From the NCBI GenBank assembly GCA_012845835.1, contig JABAKD010000016.1, positions 8,453,919-8,517,918 on the forward strand: a DNA stretch of 64,000 bases, given 5' to 3'. This DNA comes from Undaria pinnatifida. Lineage: Eukaryota; Sar; Phaeophyceae; Laminariales; Alariaceae. The notes beneath the pieces were generated by a model. The model did no database searches, had not been told where the DNA came from, and saw only the letters and a program-made list of their open reading frames with translations. This document shows positions 1-61,800 of this stretch, one piece after another. Every line of letters starts with the position of its first letter. Positions within the stretch are counted from its first letter, which is position 1. Position numbers and translations under genes: made by a program.

Positions 1-3000
1 GCCACGGAAATCCTCTATATATCTATGTATCGTTACAACCCGCACTTGATTTCATTGATGGCCATCGCGGAATGCGGTGCCGATTCTTGCGGAGTTACAG
101 AAACGAACGCCAGTGGGTCACGGCATCAGCATCTTCGGGTGGGCCAGATACTCTCAGTAAAATCCGATGCGAATCGACGAGCAGTGGGAATGCTGAACAC
201 TATAATCGACGAAAATTAAGGCACGTACTGAGGGGACAAAGGGATACCACCCGTGACCATGGTTTCTCCAGGATCCTGTAGTTCGTCAGTGAGGTTGACA
301 CCTCCTTCGAATCGAGCTGGAAATCAAGTGATACATAACGTGCAGAGCGTCCGAGAAGCCCGGAGCTGGCGCGGAAGCCCGGAGCTGGCGCGGACCGCTA
401 TCGTGTGCGTCTGTTGCCGACATCCGTCACGACAGGGGCGCCAACCGGTCCGGCATCGTTCGAGGGAAAAAAATGTCAAGATCTTGGGCTTCTGTGCACT
501 AAGCGGCCAGAAACAAACTGACGAACACCTTCCAAGCAACAGCAGCAGTAGTTCGCGCCCTCCATTCCTGTCAGGACGCCAACCTGTTCTGTGTCCACTG
601 ACAGTCACCATGTTTGAAGAGTTTTGTTTTGTTTTGTGGCGGTCGACGAATGATTCAGAATTGTGGATGATATATGTATAGTGTCGCAAGAAGTAAGACA
701 ACAACGGCAGACCAAAAAAATGGTTTGGAGCTTCTGTGATTTAGGACACGCGCGATAAACGGCATTGGAGAATGAACACGTCAACTGACATTCATTGGGG
801 AATAGAGACAGATCCCAGCACACTGGGTGTTTAATTCGTGGCCTGTCGTTCTCTGTTCCAAAACGTCTTGAGCGCACTGTTGATATTAATTAATACTATG
901 TTTTGGTAAAGAAATATTAGTGTCATCTCTACCCCACATTGCGAGTGATGCTGCATGTTGTGCGTAGCATACAAACGATGTTCCTTCTGTTACGCAACGT
1001 TTCGAGCACATGCTGCTGCTTCGCGTAAAAAAAATGCACCGGGTACAGGGTGCGTAATTACCCATGGTTACATCCCATGAAGAAAAGTGAATTTCGTTTG
1101 TTGTGATAACAGAGATTTGTGGAAAAAACACGAGCCTCGTCTACGAGTACTACCCAGAAGAAAGAGAGAACAATAAAAGAGACACCCCAGCCGCCGGGAT
1201 AAGCCAGGCCGCACCGCTTGACTGCCGCAAGAACGCTCAAAGGCCTGTTTTTTTACTCTCCCGAAGACTCACCGCCTGCACCCCCCAGCCCACCCACACA
1301 CCCCTTTCCCCCCCAGGCAAACGTCAAGCGGGGCCTGCTCAATACAGGCGGGCCCCTTAAAGGCTGATACAGCGCATAATCCATTCACATTGGCTGCTGA
1401 GCGGCAAAAACATCAGGCACGCTTCAACCTGCACCGGAAGGGGGGGGGGGGAGGGGAGGGCACGCGACTAACGCCGCGTAAGCCCCCACGAGGATGAAGC
1501 ATGCGCAGAAAGCGACGGTAGGTACTGCACGCTACCACGATCTGGCTCACTGACAGCGAGGTAATCAAATGAAAGAAAAAAAATGATCTCCCTCCTTGAA
1601 GTAGCCGCTCCCCTCTGCCTCTCTCTCCCCTTGTTTGTTCCCACCATACTTCCCCCGAAAATCCCCTTTAAAACCACAACGGTCTGCTCACATAAACGGC
1701 ACGCAGACTAAGCAGACACGCCGTTCGCCCTTAACGCCTTGGAACATGTGATAGAAAAATAAACCCACCACACTCCACCGGTTTCCTACTCCTGTGTGCC
1801 TAGCACACGGCGAGGTTTCCAACCACGTGAGTGTGCTTATGTGTTGCGGGGGTGGGGGGCATGGGAGGGGTGTGAGGGGGGGGAGCAAGAACGGAAACAA
1901 GCAAAACTTTACTCTCGACAGAGGGCGGCCACGTCGTTTTCTTTCTACATCTACCGTCGTCAGACAAAAATCGAACTGCTTACCGGTTCGACACACAACA
2001 ACCTTCCGAGTCTTCCCCGCTCCGTTGCCCCCCCCCCCCCCCACTCCCGCCCTTTTTCTTCCCCTCCCCTCCATTCTAAAAAGAAGATAACTATTGCGAC
2101 GAGAGACGTAAAAGGCGTCCCCCCTCCCCCTCTTTTGCAGTTCCTAGAAAGAGGAAGTCTTTTTGAGGCACGGAAGTCACAAACTGCTTGCTCCTTCCAC
2201 GCCTTCCCCCCCCCTTCCCCCGCCAAAATGTGCCCATAACCCCCACCGGAATGTGTCCATAACGGCAAGCTTCGGCGGCGGCAGCGGTTTTTGCAGAGAC
2301 AAAAAGGCCCACAAGCACGCCCCCGGGGCGACCCAAGCGCCTAAAAAAAAGAAAAGACGCCGTTAACTCCCGGCCTTGCACGGCACAAAACGGCATGTGG
2401 CCGATTTTGCCTCTGCTCTGGCCATAAGAGTTATATAGGGTGCCGCCGATAGCGATGGCGCCGCTTTAGAATTCCAGGGTAGGCTGGGGCGCGCACGCGG
2501 TAGTATAATAGCAGAAGACGGCGGTAGCAGCAGCAAAGGTGGGGTACGACGGAGGGGAAGTGACAGAATAGGTCAAGCCCCGGGTTTCTAATCGGTGCAC
2601 ACCAGACCGAAAAACGGTGTACTATATAATTAGTACTGGTAATATCAATGGTGTAATGTGGCGGAATGAGGTTTAGGAGCCACCAGTATCGTTTTCGAGT
2701 GACTCGTTTATTGGTGTGCAACGTGGATTTTTCAGACAGTCGAGTCTTCGTTTCCATCCGAGTATTTTGCTCAAAAAGTACTACGTATGCAGGAGGCGAT
2801 ATGAGCGAGCTTGCACATAAATACGTCTTGTCAGTCTCACCCGACCACGACAAAAACAGACAAGCCGTCGCTAAACCCCTCCCCCTCCAGAACAAAGAAT
2901 CGTATTCCAAGCAAATACACCCGTTCATCCGCCCGTTCTCGCCCGTTAACAGTGCATACCCCCCTGCCCGTCCTGGGTCTTGTTGGTTTTGTTTACTTAC
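1..3000. other. 3' flank of the light-harvesting gene, no gene recognised
   Basis: No conserved protein block was recognised here on either strand. The stretch holds homopolymer C/G runs (around 1441-1452 and 2030-2042) and C-rich tracts at 1250-1320 and 2110-2220. The last coding exon and 3' UTR of the light-harvesting gene at 3001-12024 (minus strand) should lie here. A good minus-strand acceptor with a T-rich tract ends near 2341-2349, but its downstream translation does not look like a light-harvesting C-terminus, so I did not assign it. Confidence 0.5.
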
Positions 3001-6000
3001 CTTGTGGAACATCATCATCTGTACCAGCTCGCCGATGATGGCGAGCATCGCGACGCGCGAGTGCTTGACCTCCGACAGCTTCAGCCTCTCCTGCTCTGCC
3101 GCGCTCTTGTTGTAGAAGATCTTAGAGCCCTGCGGGAGGAGAAAAGCGGCGAAAAATGCGTCCGCGAAACAAGCCAGCATCGAACATTGAACAGGAAGGA
3201 ACAACGGGGCATCAAACAAAATATCCCAAAAAATCAAGAATCCAATAATAATAATCCAAGAATTCATAATTCAACAATTCATTAATTATAAAGAAACTTT
3301 TTCAAAATTTAAATTACAAGAATTCAAAACATACTAAAATTGTGATAGGTGTGATAGATGTTGCTTGCTCAGCAGGTGCATGCGACACAACCCTTTTTAC
3401 CACATTTGTTGCCTCCCACGACGTATGGAAACTCGTCATGATGCAAATACAGACGCCATTTCAAGACAAGATATTATCCGAAAGTGGACCCCCATTTCCG
3501 AATGGGGGCCGTCCAGAAAACGATATCCGAAAATGGAAGCCTGAAGCATCACCAGTTTGGGGTCTACGGGTTGCAAACTGGTTATGCGATCCGAAAACAA
3601 TCATTTTCGGATTCGAAATCGGTCTTGTACGAAAACTTTTGAAATTTATAATCTAAGAAATTCAAAAAAGGACGCAAACGCGGTCGTAAGCGGTTTGGAG
3701 AGTGACGACCTCAAAGCAGCGGCTGACCGTTGCGAGCGACAACTATCAGCCTGCCTGCACCCATTGCCACCCGCCGTTGGTTCAACTCCGATTAAGCGGG
3801 GCGACGGCGGCCAGCGGAAAGGGCGGTCGCTGTATCTGCTCGTTCCGGTTCGGCGCTTGCGTGCCTACCCGCCTAAAAGCTTAACACAGCCTCCAGTACT
3901 TTGCAAAATACAACAACAAATTACGCAACCAATGCGTGTGCAGACGAGACGAACATGCAACACAATCACGTCCACCACAAGGAACGAAACAGTATGGGCC
4001 ACTATACAGCGACACAAAAACTAACAAGTGCGGTCTTACCAAGTGCCGAGTGCGAGCACACAGCAGAAAAAGCACTAGAAAGTATCGTACTGCACGCGAG
4101 ATGTACAGCGTCTTGCATCACGCCTCAGACAGGATACCACCCCCAAACCTTGCAGCCCGCGCTGCTCGCTGTGGTCGATGCCGTATCAAGTAGATTCGTT
4201 CACGAGTACGTACTATAGTCTACAACAGTATTCCTAATAGTGCGCAGTGACAGGCAATGCGGCAAGACATGCGACGCTTCCAAAAGAAAGGATTTCTTCC
4301 CAAGCCTTTTCTACCGTGCGGCTAATTAACCAACTCCAGCCAAACGGAAGTTGGTGGGGGGTCTCGGAACAAAGAGTTCGTGCGCATTCTCCTAACCGTT
4401 CGGTCGAGCATCGTCTAGTCCAGGGGGTTAACCATCAACCCGAGTACGTACCTCCATACTGCCGGAGGGTGGGGTGAGGGTAAGGCGGTTGAGGGAAAAA
4501 AAATAACGGAACGATTATCCCCACCCGTGATGGAATCGAAATCGTCGCGAGTTCATCGCCATGGCTTTCGACTGAAGCGACACTTTTACACCGGCCAAAC
4601 GGGCACGCTCGGGGCCGCTACTTGCATTGCTTTGTATGATGCTATAGCTTAAAACATCTTACAGATATCTCCCCCATTTCGGTGGGTTCCCCAGCAATTA
4701 ACTGGCCTCGCAGGTCCCACCTGGATAACGCGTTTCTTTTTATTTTTCTTAATCGCCCACGAGAATTTTCGCCCACGAGCATTTTCGATATTTTTGAGAA
4801 TCTTCTTTCTTCCGTTTTATCGTTTTTTTTTGTTTCTTCCCTTTTGATATATCTTACCGTGGGGTCCTGGAGGAGTGTCTCCCAGGGGTCGTTGGAGTCA
4901 CCGGAGAACGTGCCGAGGATCGACGCAAGCTCGAACACCGCGATGACTGCGCGTCATTGGCAGCGGATGAGAACAAGGACACCGTAAGAGGCCGCCCAGG
5001 CATCGCATACGAAACCAAAGCGCCGTATCAGCAGCAGAGAAGCAGCAAAGGAGAGCAGCATCACGGTGGAACCAAGAAAACAATATACAGCCACAAACAC
5101 GCAGGCCAATGGCTCGACACATCACATACAAGGCAAACATATCGCATCAGGGTTACGTTCCCCGCGGTGCGCGCTACGATAGAGGTAACGGTTTCTGCCT
5201 ATTTTAAACAATTCTGAAGGACGGGGCGCCTCACTCCAAATCGTTTGAAACCGTCATTCTTGTTTTGCATTTTTCTTTGTTGCTATGTCTAAAGCCATGG
5301 CCTCATTCATCGGGTTGCGCTTTGAGCTCACTCTATACTACTAATAAGTTTTTGGGTGAGGCATAATGAGAGCCCATCAAGTCACCACACCCTCAGAAGG
5401 CAAATGGTGCACCTCTGTACCATAGCAATGTGTCCCGCACGCGGTCCTCCGGGAAGCACTGGCGGCGGCACCGCTCCGAAGGATTTCGGCGTGACTTAAC
5501 TCTGTTTTCGACATGACTTTAAATTTTTTATGTACAATGATTAGAACCGCGTTTCTCGTTGGGGAGGTCGCCAAACCTGGGTCCCACAAGGGGTAACGCC
5601 CGTGTACAGCTCTACTATCATCGTTCTGCACGCGATGGCCGCCCATAGCTGCACCGCAATCGTGCTACACACGACGTTCGTCGACAGCTGCGCGGTAATC
5701 GTCCTGCGCGGAACGCGATGGATGACTTGGGAGCACGAGAGGAAACGGTGCAACGCAGGACGCGGGCTCTACACGAGTATAAACACGGTCGAACCCATCT
5801 CCCGAGGCATGCCCCCCGCCCCGTTCGCGCCTTCCCGCCCCTTTCGTGCTGGCGGTAGCCTTGACTTACGAAATAATTATAACAGCCACGAAGACTGTGA
5901 TTGTCCATCGTTGGCCATCCTTGACCGCTTCAAGCGATCCACTTCAAAACAACGAGCACCTACCCGCACAACACTCGTTTGCGCGTCGTCTCGAGCCGAG

Positions 6001-9000
6001 CCCCCCCTCCCCCCCCCCCTTCCTTATCCACGTCCCGCGGGAAGCCACACGCACACACCGTCAACACCGTGCACGAAACCGACGGCGCAACTACTTGTAG
6101 ATACGAGCTTGCCACAGGTCACACAATACTACAGTATTTTTAGCGTTCTTGTTTATGCTGTGGCCATTCTAGTGAAAACTCCGGTTATGGAGGGTAACAT
6201 TGGGTCGGGTCAGGGTTTATGGTGGGCCGTGACGGCGGCATATGTACCCAGGGTCGGTTTGGAGGGCTCAGGTCTGGGTGTGAATAAGGTCGGCGCGCGG
6301 TCAGGGCGCCGAGTTAGAGCAGGATCGGATTGGGTGCGACCTGCGAACTTTTTCTTGAAAGGGCTCGTGTCTACTTACGTTAATACAATTTTCAGCGGTG
6401 TATGCAGAGTATTTTGAAAAAAGCTGCTAAACACGTCCGCTGTGAGTTCCATAAATTTAGAGTCGATGCTCATCTTTGCAAGCTGCGTGATATATCGAAT
6501 TCTGCGAATACAATGAAGGAGTTAAATTGACACACGGTGTGCATAAACATATGTGGAAGTATGCGTGGCGAGCTTTGTTGCTTTTAAATCCAGGCTGAAA
6601 CCCAAAAGCGATGACCCATCACTACGTACCACATCAACGCACAGCAGTAATCTATCTACAGTCTACAATAGCTTTAGCACTCTGTCATATACGGCTAGGT
6701 ATTACAATACGCAGTCTAACAGGAACTCTTGCGCTGCGCAGTGTTATGCTGTACACAAAAAACGTCCACGTACTGTTTGACTACCAACGCTACACAAAAA
6801 AACCGTGTGGTCGGCCTGCTGCCTGGTCCAAGGCGTCACAACGTCGGTGCTTCTGTCTCTGCTGTCTGTCAACATGACAACCGGCGGCAGTCATCCCGAG
6901 CTCGAGATTCACCGCGTGATTCAAAGGCCATTCACTTCAAAGGAAGGTCGGGCAGGCGGGGCGCCATCGTGTGCTCAGATCAGACTATCGCGACGCCCAC
7001 GGTCAAGCCACGCTTCGTGGATGTCCCCCCCAAAATAAGGGTCCAGCCACAGCGAGATGGACGAAGAGCAGGCAACCCAATACTAGTCGTCCTCGCTCAC
7101 GCGCACAAGCTGGACTATCATAGTCTGTAGAAAGGCGGAAGTGGCGCGCTTGTCAACATTTTCCCAAATTTCCAAATCTCGCCATTTTTCGCCCGGCGTC
7201 CCAGCGTCTTCGCACTGCAGTTGCGGCACGAATGCCCGTCCACGATGCTCGGGGTTTCGTGTGTTTTTGAGTGTTAATATCTTCATATATGTAGCTGCGA
7301 CTAAAACACGGTAAATAACGCCCTGCTTTACGTCGAAAGGGGTGCAGGGTCAATGGTCCAAATGACAAGGCAAGCAATAAATGCGTACACCCCACCCCCG
7401 TCCCCGTGAAATCGCCCTAAAAAACGACCAGTATCTCCCCCTACAAAACCACCGGCCCCTCCACCCCCCCTCTTCCGCCAGCCTCCTCCTTCTAACGCAC
7501 CATCAGCAGCACACACATGCTCCCCGCCCCCAACCCTTGGGGAGAACTCACAAGAGAAGACCTGCGCTTGTGCTCCAACAGACACCGAGGTGAGGGCTTC
7601 GAGCGGCCCCACCTGGAACTGGTCTCCCGGCAGGTGAACGTACTGCGTCAGAATGAAACCCACAATAGCAAGCATCGCAACACGCCCGTGCTTGATCTCC
7701 GCGGCTGTGAGGGGGGAGGGGAGAGGGGGGGAGGACAAGGAGGGAAATAAGGGAGGGGGGAGGGGATGATGAGGGGAAAGGATGGGGATTAAGCAGAGGA
7801 GGGGGGGGTGGGGGGGGTGTAAGGAGATCAGGGAGGAGGCAGTAAGCACGGTAAGGAGGGGTGGGGGGGTGGGCGAAAGGAGGGGGAGGGGGAGGTGTAA
7901 GGAGAGACAGGTGCAGGGGGGCATACGTAACGAAGGTGAGGGGGGGAGACAACGAACGCAAAACGGTGTGGAGGTCGGGAGGGGGGATGGGGGAGGAGTC
8001 CACAAAGAGCAGAACCGTCAGGGTACGATGTATACCATTGGACAGGAAAACCCTGGGTAGGAGGGTGAGGGGGATGTTGGTTATATAGAACTACCCACTG
8101 GCCTACGTAGTCACGTGACTGCGTAGCTCAGTGGGTAGTTCTATGTAACAGGGGACGGTGGGATAACGCCACGTTACTTTCAATTTCCCTCTCGTGATTT
8201 TCGGTATCCGAAGGACGGGCCACGCGAGGCCACTGGCAAAGCACAGCCTCTCTTTTTATTACTACTTGTGCACTACGAAATCCATTGCCCATGCCACCTC
8301 GAAAGACTAGTACTAAAACACCACTACTGAATCCGATACCGTTGGCACAACCAGTACGACTACCACTACTACAATGCCAGTGGTTGTGCTACCACAATTT
8401 TAAGTTGATCACCCCTACCATTGCCGTTCGCAAGACCTCTCCATTCAAGCCTCCTCCTCCTCCCATCATTAATACTGCAATATACTACGGCCGTTACTTC
8501 TTCTGTTAATACAACCACAACGTGTATCATATCGCGACTACCATTACCGTTCGCAAGACCTCTGCATTAACGCCTCCCACTCCTCCTCCTACGACTATTA
8601 TTAACAATGCAATATACTATGCCTACCGCTTCTGCTACAACCACAATGTGTATCATCACGACTAATAATATTACTGCCCACCGCTGCTACTATCGTACCT
8701 GATACGCTACTGCTACTTTATTTAATACTACTGCTACCACTACATCTACTACTATTAATACTAAGATTATACTACCAGTATGCTACTACACTGTACCATC
8801 ACTAACACTACCACCAACACACTACCGCTACAACTACTACCAATACCGGTGCCACAACTGCATACCAAGTGCGCTTTGCAGCCCGACCCCTACGATAGTG
8901 CTGCGCTACTTTAGTCAACACGCGGGGTCGTCCTCATACCACCGGCACACCGTGTCCAGGTCAAAATGCTCCATCGTCGTCGACACACAGCATATGCAGT

Positions 9001-23165: not shown

Positions 23166-24129
23166 TCAACGTCACACAGCGTCACAGCCGACGTTTGGTT
23201 GCTGGTTCTGTCACAAACGTCCTTCTGTACAACAGCTAGCTAACGTTTTTTAGATAGAGGTGGGCAAGGTGCATCTTCCGTTTTTTTTCAACTATGCGTC
23301 ACAGGTTGCAGACCTATCAACCTTCACCTTTTGCATGCCATATGACCACTCGCAACTCTGGCTCGAACCTCTGCGGCAGCCTGCAGAGAGAACAGAGTAC
23401 AGCGTGCAGAAAAAAGCACTACGATAGTACCGCCCCCGCGCGCGGCATTACTTGAAGGCCCCTGCCGAGAACTCTGCCTCAGCTGTCTCTGCCTTGGGTT
23501 GTGTCTGTTACAACTCTGCTGCGTTGTCGCTGTTTTTTACGCACGATTCACATGAGGTTGTTCATGAACGAATGAGGAAGCAAGCTTCCATCTCTCGTGT
23601 CGTTCTGGGAGTTGGACTGCTTGATTTTTGGGATATCTTCCTTGCTACATACTCGTTTCATGGAGGAGTGTCTATGCGTGGGGAGCATGGGAGGGAAGGA
23701 GCTGGCTGTGATGATGCCACTAGCGCTATGGCTGAGCACCTTGGGGGAAGGCGCTCAAGTGCTGGCTGCGGAGGTCGCCGTTGCTGCAGAAGCGTGTTGC
23801 GCAAGCTCGCATCGTTTGTTTGGGATCACCCAACACAGCTGCAGCTTCGGTATTTACTTACACCAAGCCAGCAGGCAAATCGCACATACATCAAAAATGT
23901 ACCCGCAAATTATTGCGCATGGGCGGTCACCCATTGGTCAGCGTATTTTCCAAGAAGATGTGGAAATACTTTATTAAAAACCAAAAAGGCGAACGCCATA
24001 CGGAGGAAGTTTAATATTTGACGAAATTAACGACGGACATCACCGTGTTAATTTTTAGGACTACACGCTACGAGTACACTATTATTCAAGGGTGTGTTCG
24101 GTACGGTACGTACCGAGGCGTACCGCCGG

Positions 24130-24440
24130 TATATACCGCCGGTATTACCGGTACCGGACACTTCGGTAAGGTACCGGTACCGGAAACTTCGGTAAGTTCG
24201 GTGCAACATCAATACCGATACCGGAAACTTCGGTAAGTTCGGTACGACGTCAATACCGGTACCGGACACTTCGGCAAGTTCGGTACGACATCAATACCGG
24301 TACCGGCGGTACCGGTATGCACACTTGTGTACCGGAGCCGGTACCGGTATCGGTACAACATCTATACTGGTACCGGACACTTCAGTAAGATCGGCACAAC
24401 ATCAACCCGGTACCGGACACTTCGGTACGTTTGGCACGAT
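24130..24440 (+). repeat. Left subterminal 41-bp array of the hAT-like element
   Basis: Repeated units contain CGGACACTTCGGTAAGTTCG followed by GTACGACATCAATACCGGTAC, with substitutions between copies. GGTACC-type palindromes recur at every unit junction. In hAT elements subterminal repeats usually serve as transposase-binding sites; that role is inferred here. Confidence 0.8.
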
Positions 24441-24604
24441 ATCAACCCGATTCCACCACATTGTGACGTCATCCCTTGGAGCTTTGGCTCCAGGCAGCAC
24501 TACTCCAAGCCACACACACCCAGATCCCCAAGCATCTTCCAGTACGCTCGGTATTCCGGGACTCTGAGCACGCATGAGTGACGGTGCAAAATTCCCAGAA
24601 TGAA

Positions 24605-24913
24605 ATGGCCTCCAACAGTGATGCCACCGCTTCTGGTGGCGGGTCGTCTTCGCGAGCTCCCACACACATCAGCGCCGGCGGCAGAAGTTATCGACGTGGG
24701 CGCGGAAAAGAAAGCCTGCCGGTGATTTTGCCTGTTCCTGTGTACAACTCGCGCACGAGAAACGTGTACGAGTTGCCGGCGGAGACGATCAAAGACGTCT
24801 ATGGTTTCCCAGTGCCGGCAGGTTTTCGGAGGGAAGGGACGCGTGAAGCCTCGTTTATGTACTCGATTGGCGTGTACGTCGAACCGATCGACGAGAAGAC
24901 GGCGCCCTGCTGA
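24605..24913 (+). CDS. Unidentified 102-aa ORF inside the hAT-like element
   Basis: ATG at 24605, TGA at 24911-24913. The product begins with a Ser/Gly/Ala-rich segment, then a basic patch (GGRSYRRGRGKE), then a more ordered part with PVPVYNSRTRNVYELP and DVYGFPVPAGFRREG. I recognise no domain, and no BED-type zinc finger or RNase H-like transposase motif is visible. It fills much of the unique core between the two arrays. It may be a captured host fragment, a remnant of an element gene, or a chance frame. Confidence 0.35.
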   Translation: MASNSDATASGGGSSSRAPTHISAGGRSYRRGRGKESLPVILPVPVYNSRTRNVYELPAETIKDVYGFPVPAGFRREGTREASFMYSIGVYVEPIDEKTAPC

Positions 24914-25084
24914 TAATCCAAAGGGTACCTCACCTTTTGAACAGCATACCAAGACCAAGAAAATAAGAGAAAACATATTGTAACGAAGAGAACAATGGTA
25001 ATTCACTTCAATTATATACCTCAGCGGGTATCCCCGGCCAATACTGGATTTGCTCTGTACATGTACCGCTAGTTTATGTCCAGT

Positions 25085-25515
25085 TTATGTACCTAAGCGC
25101 AAGTGTCGGTGCCTTGCCGGCGGTATATACCGCCGGTACTGCCGGTATATATATTCAAATGTGTGCCCGTACCAGTACCGGTACCGGTACAGACTTTCGT
25201 ACCGGTACCGGTACAGACTTTCGTACCGGTACCGGAAACTTCGGTAAGTTCGGTACGACATCAATACCGGTACCTGAAACTTCGGTAAGTTCGGTACATA
25301 CTGGTACCTGATTCTTCGGCAAGTTCGGTACGACATCAATACCGGTATCGGCGGTACCGGTACAAACTTTCGTACGGGTGCCGGACACTTCGGTAAGTTC
25401 GGTACATCTCCAATACTGGTACCGGACACTTCGGTAAGTTCGGTATGACGTCAATACCGGTATCGGACACTTCGGTAAGTTCGGTACGACATCCATACCG
25501 GTACCGAGAATACGG
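25085..25515 (+). repeat. Right subterminal 41-bp array of the hAT-like element
   Basis: Same unit and same orientation as the left array: ACTTCGGTAAGTTCGGTACG, then ACATCAATACCGGTACC. It opens with CGGTATATACCGCCGGTA, also present near 24127-24145 at the start of the left array, so the arrays are direct copies of one another. Confidence 0.8.
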
Positions 25516-25546
25516 GTGCCGTACCGAACACACCCTTGCTATTATT

Positions 25547-41443: not shown

Positions 41444-42888
41444 GGCCATTTCTTACACAGTCGGATTCCGCCAGTCGAAAACAGCCGTTTTCGACTGGAT
41501 TCTTCTGGTCCTTCTTATCGTCAGTCGAGTCGATTTCGTGGTTTTTGTGCTCTTCCTAGAGGCGGTTGGTGTGAGGGAGTACTGCTGTACTGCTGTATGG
41601 CAGTCAAAAATCGGTTGGCAGCTCTGCGCTTCGCGCGTTCTGCGCGAGCAACGCGTGCTCGCGCTCGACGAACCTTCGTCCCAGCGAGTTGGTGGCTTTG
41701 GGCTTATAGCCGAAAGCTACCTTCGTGGAGTTGCACTCAGCCGAGAGCCGCCAAAGCTACAGCAGGTGTAGCCGTTCTTGGCAAAATGGCATCGATAGCG
41801 CGCGCTGCTGCCGTCGTGTGAAACACGCTGCTGGCGAGCGGAGCTAGGAGTGCGCCACGCTGACTTGCGGCGAAAAGCAACAGCAGTATTAGCCAAGCCA
41901 GCGTCAGCGCCTTGTATGATACTGTGCTGTGTGGTACCTGGTGTGGGTGTGTGGGTGTGTGGGCGTGTGGGTGTTTGGGCATGTGGGTGTGTTTTTGGAG
42001 GTGGGATGATCGATGCGATGGGTTAAAAAAACACGTGTAAAACTTTTTCGACTGAGTTTTTCGACTGGCGAATCCAGTCGAAAAAGTAAGGCCATTTCTT
42101 TTACAGTCGGATTTGTCATTCGAAAACGGCCGTTTTCGACTGAAGCCCAAATCGGGCTTTCTTACAGAGTCGAAAAGGGTTTTCTCGACTCAACTTTCTT
42201 CCGACTGGATCCGCCAGTCGAAAAACTCAGTCGAAAAAGTTTTACACGTGTTTTTTTAACCCATCGCATCGCTCATCCCACCACAAAACACACACCCACA
42301 CGCACACAAACCCATACCAGGTACCACACAGCAGTATCATACAACAGCGCCGACGCTGCCTTGGCTAGTACTGCTGTTGCTTCTCGCCAGAAGTCAGCGT
42401 GGCGCACTCCTAGCTCCGCTCGCCAGCAGCGTGTATGACACGACAGCAGTAGCGCGCGTTATTGATGCCATTTTGCCAACAACGGCTACGCCTGCTGTAG
42501 CTTTGGCGACTCTCGGCTGAGTGCAACGCCACCAACCTGCTTGGACGAAGGTTCGTCGCGCGTGAAGCACGCGTTGCTCGCGAAGAACGCGCAAAGCGCA
42601 GAGCTGCCGACCGATTTTCGACTGCCATACAGCAGCACTCCCTTACGCCAACCGCCTCTAGGAAGAGCGCAAAACTATAAAATCGACTCGACTGACGATA
42701 AGGAGAAGGACCAGAAGAATTCAGTCGAATAAAAGTCCAATCGAAAAGGGCCGTTTTCGACTGGCGGAAACCGACTGTATAAGAAATGGCCTAAAAGTTT
42801 GCTTTTTCGACTGGATCCCCCAGTCAGAAAACTCAGTCGAAAAAAGTCGAGTCGAAAAAGCCCTTTTTCGACTGTGTAAGAAATGGCC
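41444..42888. mobile_element. Fold-back element with GGCCATTTCTTACACAGTCG termini
   Basis: A perfect 20-bp terminal inverted repeat lies at 41444-41463 and 42869-42888. Inside it the two halves (about 41444-42080 and 42187-42790) are diverged reverse complements over about 600 bases. Both carry GTACTGCTG, the CAGCTCTGCGCTTTGCGC-like block, ATGCCATTTTGCC and the (GTGTGGG)n/(CACACCC)n tract. The loop of about 100 bases contains another GGCCATTTCTTTTACAGTCG end. A further internal end lies at 42771-42790, so the element is a mosaic. The trinucleotide TCA flanks both sides (41441-41443, 42889-42891). GGCC-type termini with a 3-bp duplication suggest PIF/Harbinger, although that family normally uses TWA. 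No transposase was seen. Confidence 0.8.
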
Positions 42889-58866: not shown

Positions 58867-61800
58867 ATGCAGCGGTTGCCTAAGCAAGTCCGGTGGCGTA
58901 GGCTCGTAGGGGCAGCAGATCGCCGATCCCTACCATTAGCAGCATGCTCGCTTGGTTCACCGCGAAGCAGAAGTCAGTCCCACAACAACAGCAGTAGCGG
59001 CAGTAGTGACAGTGGCGGTAGTCGACCACTCTGGACTGGCCGAAAAGTCGGAAGCAGAAGAGCGAATGAACACGGGCCAGGGACGGCGGCAGAAGCATGC
59101 CACGGAAATGTCAGCGAAGCCGAGGTGCAGAAGTTCCGCCACTTGGAAAAGTGAGCTGACCGAAAGCGGCATCGATTTTGACACCGCAACTTGTTTGTTT
59201 CATTTGTACTGCTGCTTGCATGTCTTGGCTTGCTTGCGCTTGCTTTGCCGTGCTCCACTTGGTTGCCGTGCTCTGCTTGCTTGCCGTGCTCTGCTTGCTT
59301 GTCTCGCTCTGTTCGCTTGCCTTGCTCTGCTACGTTGCTTGCACAACGTTGCTTCCACAACCTTTCTTGCACACTGCACACCCTTTGCTTAGGGTCGTTC
59401 TGTTACATGCCACTTTTTTCGGATTTAAGTTTTTATTTCCGAAACTTTCGGTAAACACCGAAATAATGTCTTCGCTAAGACCGGTGACAATGGAAGGCCA
59501 AAAGTTTGAAATTCCCGAAGATACCAGCCAAACTTTGCCTGAACGGTCGCCTATGGACCCAATTTGGTAAAATTATGTTTTGAAACTTTCCAGAAATCCG
59601 GGAGAAAACGATTTCTCGCGGCAATCTTGGCCAACATCGGCCTGAGAAATTCTCAAGCAGATCTTGGATTAGACGCGGCGCAATTCGTGTTCTCCACACA
59701 CTTCGTTCGACGAAATTAACGACAGCGTCGTGAACTCTGAACGCGGCGAGCTCGTTAGGGGCTCCGACCCCCTTTTAGGTGTACAGCGCTCACTCTACGG
59801 CCGGTGATTTGTGGCGGGCGCCGATCAGGCTTCTGTTAAAAACACATTTGGCGGCTGGTGTGTAGAAAACTGAAACAAAACCTCTCCATCGTCTCCCGAC
59901 GGGCGAAAAACAGAATTTCGAGAGAATGTGACGGACGACCACAGGATAACACAAGCAGCCTCTCACGCCCTAGGGCATGGATCGAGATGAACTCTTCGGC
60001 GCTGTCATTCACACTCATGTGGCCTTGTCTGGAACGAAGAGGAGTGACCATGGTTGTCTCTACCTCGAGATCGAAGGTCAATCGTATTTGGTGGGCAGTG
60101 TTGATCAAGGGTTGGTGAAGAATAGACAAATTGACTTGTTGGACCGCATGGCTATAAAAAGAGCCAGAACAAAAACATTTAGTCATTTTTTCCCCATAGC
60201 GACGTTACCCAGAGTATTTCGGCAAATAACCCCCCAAAAAAGCTTGGAAACTTTTTGGTCAAACTATCGGCTTTCCATTGTCATGTTCTTATTGCCGAAA
60301 TATTGCGGGTAATGTCGCTATGGAAAAAAAACATTTTTTTTTTTTTTTCTGGCTCTCTGGTCATGCGGTCCAACAGGTCAATTTGTTTATTTTCCATCAA
60401 GCCTTGATCAACACTGCCCACCAAACACGATTGACCTTAGAACTCGAGATAGAGACAACCCATTGTCACTCCTCTTCGTTCCGGACAAGGCCACATGAGT
60501 GTAGCTGACAGCGCTGAAGAGTCCATCTCGATCCATGCCCGAGGGCGTGAGAGGTTGCTTGTTGTGTTCTGTGGTCTTCCGTCACATCCTCTCAAAATTC
60601 TGTTTTTCGCCCGTTGGGAGACGATAGAGAGGCTTTGTTTCAGTTTTCTACACACCAGCCGCCAAATGTGTTTCTAGCAGAAGCCTGATCGGCGCCCGCC
60701 ACAAATCACCGGCCGCGGAGCGAGCGCTGTACACCAAAAGGGGGGGTCGGAGCCCCTAACGAGCTCGCCGCGTTCAGAGTTCACGACGCTGTCGTTGATT
60801 TCGTCGAACGAAGTGTGTGGAGAACACGAATTGCGCCGCGTCTAATCCAAGATCTTCTTGAGAATTTCTCAGGCCGATGTTGGCCAAGATTGCCGCGAGA
60901 AATCGTTTCTCGGATTTCTGGACAGTTTCAAAAATTAATTTTACCAAATTGGGTCCGTAGGCGACCGTTCAGGCAAAGTTTGGCTGGTATCTTCGGATAT
61001 TTCAAACTTTTGGCCTTCCATTGTCACCGGTCTAACACCCCCCCAAAAGATCGTTTTTTTTTTGCTAAACTATCGGCTTTCCATTGTCATCGGTCTAAGA
61101 CCGGTGACAATGGAAGGCCTAAAGTTTGAAATCCCGAAGATCCCAGCCAAACTCTGCCTGAACGGTCGCCTATGGGCCCAATTTGGTGAACTCATTTTTT
61201 AAAACTTTCCGAAATTCCGGAAGAAATTGATTTCTCGCGGCGATCTTGGCTAACATCTGTTGAGAATTTTGCAAGCAGATCTCGGATTGGACGCGGCGCA
61301 ATGTCGTGAACTCTGAACGTGGCGAGCTCGTTAGGGGCTCCGACCCCCTCTTGGTGTACAGCGCTCACTCTACGGCCGGTGATTTGTGGCGGGCGCCGAT
61401 CAGGCTTCTGTTGAAAACACGTTTGGCGGCTGATGAGTAGCAAACTGAGACAAAACCTCTTTATAGTCTCCCAGCGGGCGTAAAAACAAAATGTTGAGAG
61501 AATGTGACGGAAGACCACAGGACGACACAAGCAACCTCTCACGCCCTAGGGCATGGATCGAGATGAACTCTTCAGCGCTGCCACCTACACTCATGTGACC
61601 TTGTCCAGAGCGAAGATCGGTGATCATGGGTTGCCTCTATCTCGAGATCGAAGGTCAATCGTGGTTGGTGCGCAATATTGATCAAGGCTTGATGGAAAAT
61701 AAACAAATTGACCTGTTGGACCGCATGACCAACGAAAGAGGCAGGAACGAAATATTTAATCGTTTTTTTCCATAGCGACGTTACCCGAAATATTTCGGCA

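Follow-up and report, generated by a model that had tools for sequence, protein, structure and literature searches.

The element considered here raises the question of how a mobile DNA whose two ends are inverted relative to each other comes to carry two tandem arrays that run in the same direction. It lies in a 64,000-nucleotide stretch of Undaria pinnatifida DNA, referred to below as the window, and its parts are listed in Table 1.

Structure of the element

The first-pass annotation had described an 8-bp duplication around perfect 20-bp inverted termini, together with GGTACC-rich arrays that face the same way despite those termini, and both descriptions hold. Without its octamers, the element is 1452 bp long. 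Reading from the left, a terminus, a palindromic leader, and an array lead into the middle, after which come a second leader, a second array, and the other terminus. The termini are identical over 20 bp and at 22 of their first 23 positions, and both leaders and both arrays share one direction between them: the two halves of the element align directly with a score of 338 versus 50 in inverse orientation. The motif TTCGGT occurs inside the element 19 times forward, left terminus included, and once reversed, in the right terminus, which leaves 18 forward and 0 reversed occurrences within the arrays proper. The main period of the arrays is 41, and GTTCGGTACG is common to the terminus and the 41-bp unit (shuffle p=0.002). 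TTCGGTA, the motif of the arrays, is found in the terminus too, and its repeated copies are putative transposase-binding sites. The richness in GTAC and CCGG palindromes that had been remarked upon was found as well (50 of the 315 GTAC and 40 of the 258 CCGG occurrences in the window lie in the element), and is probably simply a consequence of the unit sequence.

Table 1. Parts of the element, with positions in the window
Feature	Positions	Strand	Basis
Left target-site duplication CTATTATT	24079..24086	no strand	Window sequence; 8-bp register family-wide
Left terminal inverted repeat CAAGGGTGTGTTCGGTACGG, perfect 20 bp	24087..24106	+	Window sequence; genome occurrences of its first 18 bp
Left leader: near-perfect palindrome CCGCCGGTATATACCGCCGG and the sequence after it	24120..24153	+	
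Left array, ~41-bp units, motif TTCGGTAAGTTCGGTAC	24146..24446	+	
Middle segment, ~650 bp, conserved among family copies, coding selection not detectable	24447..25099	no strand	
111-aa open frame, searches without a relative; not maintained as a frame across the family, nor under selection	24578..24913	+	
Decayed inner copy of the left terminus; recognizable in the family consensus, shortened and non-significant in the window copy	25100..25112	+	
Right leader, same direction as left leader	25117..25147	+	
Right array, same direction and module order as left array	25163..25506	+	
Right terminal inverted repeat, perfect 20 bp	25519..25538	-	
Right target-site duplication CTATTATT	25539..25546	no strand	

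The whole window was scanned for 11-bp inverted termini flanked by direct repeats of 5-11 bp. Among the 18 rows returned, this element is the sole one whose direct repeat is 8 bp long and is not itself a palindrome. The remaining rows are mostly steps within long inverted repeats; non-palindromic repeats also occur in a 5-bp pair (55432) and in a 7-bp pair, CAGCGCC (41912-42344). The same scan on 20 Markov-random windows gave four rows, all with 5-bp repeats. Elsewhere in the window, positions 41808-42449 hold nested long inverted repeats with arms of 103-119 nt at 91% complementarity, the inner of which (41912-42344) is flanked by the CAGCGCC repeat, and positions 59478-61600 hold a large multi-arm inverted repeat whose arms reach 286 nt at 91% and 167 nt at 99% complementarity. 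One frame of the window has the fucoxanthin-chlorophyll protein chain FCP11 as its best match, consistent with a brown alga.

Family copies and target-site duplications

The organism's own genome (511,146,479 bases in 68 contigs) was searched, and at least 40 near-full copies, the window copy included, were scored among 474 candidates. Matches to the first 18 bp of the terminus number 85 forward and 89 in reverse, and those to the reversed-pattern control 0. In 27 of the 40 copies, both termini are present with no more than 3 mismatches in 18 positions, and the 13 without both were excluded from the octamer and array-motif counts. Flanking octamers match at six or more of the eight positions in 24 of these 27 copies and perfectly in eight, the other three matching at 1, 2, and 4 positions. 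The mean match is 6.59 of 8, compared with 3.36 when pairs are shuffled and 2.22-2.85 when the register is shifted (11 shifts), and per-position flank identity is 0.78-0.89 at the eight octamer positions and 0.00-0.37 outside them. Eleven further copies were chosen for their exact termini (11 of the 15 close terminus pairs among the matches listed, the other four being already in the set); the middle is present in nine of them, and octamers match at six or more positions in eight. The symmetrized target profile, from 32 of 38 copies, has A3/T6 at 77% and T4/A5 at 53%. The family that had been supposed from a single copy is thus real, and with 474 candidates, 40 of them scored, and no coding capacity, it is a family of non-autonomous DNA transposons that move in trans by cut and paste.

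Outside this genome, the 17-bp terminus gave 0 matches in viral contigs. For an 18-bp core of the unit, 37 single matches were obtained, and BLAST showed an array in none of the 37. A 19-bp terminus occurred in two stretches of prokaryote genomes, approximately the chance expectation, and neither carried an array.

For each of the 27 copies, the two flanks were joined and set against the family loci and the window; nine copies gave a match across the junction. Paralogous empty sites with a single octamer and no gap inside it, as had been anticipated for a mobile element of this kind, were found for six copies (L048, L057, L060, L064, L072, and L080); the window copy is not among them, its joined flanks having no match across the junction among the family loci and the window. 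The two outcomes that would have counted against the first-pass annotation, no further copy with these termini and an empty allele with its octamers apart, thus did not arise. The L048 empty site lies in L090 and that of L057 in its own repeated flank, whereas those of the other four lie in L099 and, for two of them, also in L101. L073 has an 8-base gap at the octamer, leaving its empty site unsupported, L082 has a 5-base gap near the octamer, and the ninth junction-matching copy, L056, falls outside the displayed alignments. L060, L064, L072, and L080 are inserted at the same octamer of one dispersed repeat; the orientation of L060 and L072 is opposite to that of L064 and L080, and the four differ from each other by 9.4-11.4%. 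Four copies at one octamer, in both directions and this far apart, imply at least two independent insertions and therefore a favored site. The same dispersed repeat is seen in L099, L101, and L096, with a weaker copy in the window at 6429-6492.

Superfamily assignment and the transposase partner

Elements of the hAT superfamily have termini that start CA(A)GG. Those of the present family start with CAAGGGTGTG, and their perfect 20 bp falls within the ~10-25 bp given for hAT inverted repeats in the relevant part of PMC3942097. Duplications of 8 bp, as in hAT, are documented by the 24 of 27 copies, the fall in identity outside the octamer, and the empty sites. The earlier description as a non-autonomous hAT-like element stands as far as the duplications, short termini, and many non-coding copies go; a transposase gene between such termini was not found. 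Pfam returned no match for the two longest middle frames of the window element, and so neither transposase similarity nor a dimerization domain in them.

The hAT dimerization domain PF05699 gave 150 scored hits over the cut-off among 371 candidates in the same genome. These hits include matches of ~285 bp repeated in many places, and hAT elements look abundant. A partner was sought by comparing 100 of the 174 exact ends with 85 of the 150 hAT positions, among the matches listed, and within this comparison no autonomous hAT element with these termini was found; the full-length, transposase-encoding relative that had been envisaged is likewise missing among the matches listed. Only the exact end at C30:12293646 and a pair of ends at C21:7450136 have a hAT hit within 20 kb, again among the matches listed. 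The hit near the C21 pair lies outside the family copy. The C30 end belongs to L102, a family copy with a different hAT element nested in it; its exact terminus is 1.3 kb from the hAT domain, but the domain belongs to the nested element, and L102 was rejected as the partner. In L102 (G000:C30:12293000-12299000), that nested element is ~2.27 kb long, has perfect 18-bp termini, CAGGGATGTTCACGGAGT, and octamers CAATTTAT (read by eye), contains a frame with the hAT dimerization domain, and sits within a family copy at 647-4481.

Membership in the hAT superfamily is likely, judging from the octamer and the termini; because the element lacks its own transposase and no partner was found, we call it hAT-like only. 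P, KDZ, and Mutator-like elements can give duplications of similar size. The octamer alone is not decisive between superfamilies, and the family might instead belong to P, KDZ/Zisupton, or Mutator; in the part of the Ectocarpus transposable element paper that gives genome coverage, KDZ accounts for 1.80% and hAT for 0.05%. However, short termini together with duplications of exactly 8 bp fit hAT, as its ends are characterized in PMC3942097, the CA(A)GG start fits hAT as well, and hAT domains are abundant in this genome; we judge a non-hAT affiliation to be quite unlikely.

Age, selection, and decay

The first-pass annotation had suggested a young family, a view that the copies do not bear out. 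Across 40 copies, the middle diverges from the consensus by 3.9-13.3% (7.3% in the window copy), the closest pair differ by 6.4%, and the median pairwise divergence is 11.1%. Their tree is star-like, with terminal branches totaling 2.253 and internal branches 0.099, and support reaches at least 0.9 at 7 of 38 nodes. Octamers of the 24 good copies carry mismatches at 21 of 192 positions (10.9%), about twice the per-copy divergence, in agreement with the age implied by that divergence. These values fit insertion in one old burst. Note that resemblance to the window copy was the basis for choosing these copies; a younger subfamily may therefore exist elsewhere.

Change ratios of 0.86-1.09 in the six frames of the middle give no sign of coding selection. 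Attempts to read the middle as coding were rejected: 12 stretches in viral contigs matched a pattern and no relative was confirmed among them, no PDB or phage match was obtained, and the frame in the window copy hinges on a single base that departs from the family consensus. The palindromes had also been proposed as methylation targets. In the middle of the 40 copies, no CpG-specific decay was detected (134 of 3830, or 3.50%, versus 352 of 9384, or 3.75%, outside CpG), and without a CpG excess of C-to-T change, the palindromes show no sign of CpG methylation targeting. In the 10 window units, CpG transitions number 9 of 100 and those at other C/G positions 4 of 110, too few to weigh.

Shared module order of the two arrays

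Unit number in the 27 copies varies from 4 to 12 on the left and from 2 to 8 on the right, and their arrays contain TTCGGTA 557 times forward and 18 times in reverse. The direct alignment of the two arrays beats the inverse one in all 27 copies. In the window copy, the arrays align with a score of 336, versus a mean of 239 and a maximum of 331 over 2000 permutations of right-array blocks; in the family, array order reaches p ≤0.05 in 22 of 27 copies (200 permutations), and five do not pass. Block permutation also breaks unit junctions, which favors the observed order, and these p values are generous. Overall, one array repeats the other, module by module and in the same order. Tandem amplification, which had been put forward to account for the arrays, fits the variable unit number but not this shared order, as the arrays are not independent local expansions.

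Left-array units differ by 0.194 within a copy and 0.188 between copies, and right-array units by 0.162 and 0.158; units are thus no closer within than between copies, and the arrays were diverse before the burst. The conserved core shows no clustering in the 10 window units (p=0.81); over 390 units, conservation is 0.93 in the core and 0.83 in the spacer, a weak difference because spacers hold indels.

Ordered duplication by itself invites another account, in which a template switch during excision-gap repair placed a copy of the left end in the right half. The leader and array are indeed duplicated directly and in order, and left and right units differ by 0.178 within and 0.179 between copies, which places the duplication before the burst. 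However, in the consensus, the duplicated block begins at the very first base of the terminus, a rare outcome for a random switch, and we regard a repair origin as distinctly improbable.

A buried terminus and short forms

That first base was located in the consensus of 46 copies, where CAAGTGTGCGTCGGTAC aligns with CAAGGGTGTGTTCGGTAC directly before the right leader, the same position that the terminus holds at the outer left end. The alignment has 15 matches, two mismatches, and one gap over 18 bp (dinucleotide shuffle p of 0.0014 and 0.0046 in 83 bp, and 0.0006 and 0.004 in 40 bp), and as a control, the terminus query against the rest of the middle gave p of 0.93 and 0.73. An inner right end is not recognizable in the consensus (p of 0.29, 0.33, 0.55, and 0.29). 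In the window copy alone, the inner left end gave p of 0.015 and 0.198, its best match falling at another place, and the inner right end gave 0.19 and 0.084. A soft alignment of the window copy's inner ends was dropped because it ran past the element once flanks were added. Judged from the consensus, the right half has the appearance of a complete short element, whereas the left half resembles only the left part of one.

Two of the eleven further copies have such a short form. L103 (500 bp, octamers GTATTCCT twice, matching 8/8) and L104 (742 bp, octamers matching 5/8) both consist of termini, a leader, and one unbroken direct array, and lack the middle. The first part of the L104 array is left-like and its later part right-like, in a classification of left and right units that is only 71% accurate against a base of 56%; the pattern favors recombination, and it also fits the natural array order. 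Short forms may be building blocks of the long form or recombination products between its direct arrays.

We think it probable, at roughly 0.6, that the long form is a composite of two hAT-like short elements lying in the same direction around ~600 bp. Two elements, each with terminus, leader, array, and terminus, would have lain ~600 bp apart; their far ends would have been used together, as in macrotransposition, making the whole one mobile unit, and the inner ends would have decayed after the joining. A composite origin would explain why the arrays share a direction although the termini are inverted. Solo LTRs form by recombination between direct repeats, and comparable recombination between the direct arrays could remove the middle and yield short forms such as L103 and L104.

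The element could also derive by deletion from an autonomous transposon whose two ends carried direct arrays from the start; the middle would then be what remains of that transposon's interior, and the short forms would have arisen by further deletion. Such is the usual origin of non-autonomous elements in the accounts of Ds-del and the BuT2 MITEs that PMC3260210 and PMC3942097 contain, and L104 looks like a left-right recombinant; the middle is conserved among copies, as expected under any single-source model. However, simple deletion does not need a decayed outer terminus opening the right half, no transposase similarity accompanies the middle, and the only hAT domain near exact termini in a family copy is that of the nested element in L102. 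We therefore consider deletion unlikely, and prefer the composite. Without the composite reading, what is left is a well-supported but ordinary non-autonomous family.

More tentatively, one-way arrays may present the two inverted ends to transposase with different polarity, and the family may cycle between long and short forms; we entertain this as a possibility that is rather doubtful.

Comparison with known systems

If the composite origin is correct, a macrotransposition-like event gave rise to a successful natural family and was not a one-off rearrangement. The family would also allow the role of subterminal-site direction at hAT-type ends to be examined in a natural setting, and such elements are little studied in this lineage.

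Herves of Anopheles gambiae is a hAT element, likewise of the 8-bp type. As described in PMC3143072, its left end contains a tandem array of three imperfect 100-bp repeats, which resembles the arrays reported here, and its transposase binds a short motif that recurs at both ends; the motif of the present family is similarly repeated, and may be bound. Herves differs, in that same description, in being autonomous, in having one array only, and in lacking a left-end copy inside its right half. The left and right ends of Hermes, as portrayed in PMC10368747, likewise differ in their subterminal repeats despite inverted termini, but those repeats are few and short, whereas the present element has one-direction arrays at both ends. 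The Tetris foldback element, in the part of PMC4079207 that deals with its structure, is similarly non-coding, with 8-10 bp duplications, tandem repeats near its ends, and no autonomous partner found; its tandem repeats lie inside the inverted repeats and are hence mirrored, whereas those reported here are direct. Tetris, with those 8-10 bp duplications, is assigned there to Mutator by its authors.

Nearby Ac/Ds elements of maize can use the ends of two copies together, as we infer for this family. Macrotransposition by linked elements in direct orientation was reportedly described by Huang and Dooner in 2008. Linked Ac/Ds pairs react together to give 8-bp duplications, according to the relevant section of PMC3744419, and the Ac/Ds system, as outlined in PMC3260210, likewise comprises non-autonomous elements, 8-bp duplications, and repeated subterminal hexamers. 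The present family differs from Ac/Ds in that the composite-like arrangement, which a comparable event would have produced, is the common form of the family and carries arrays of ~41-bp units.
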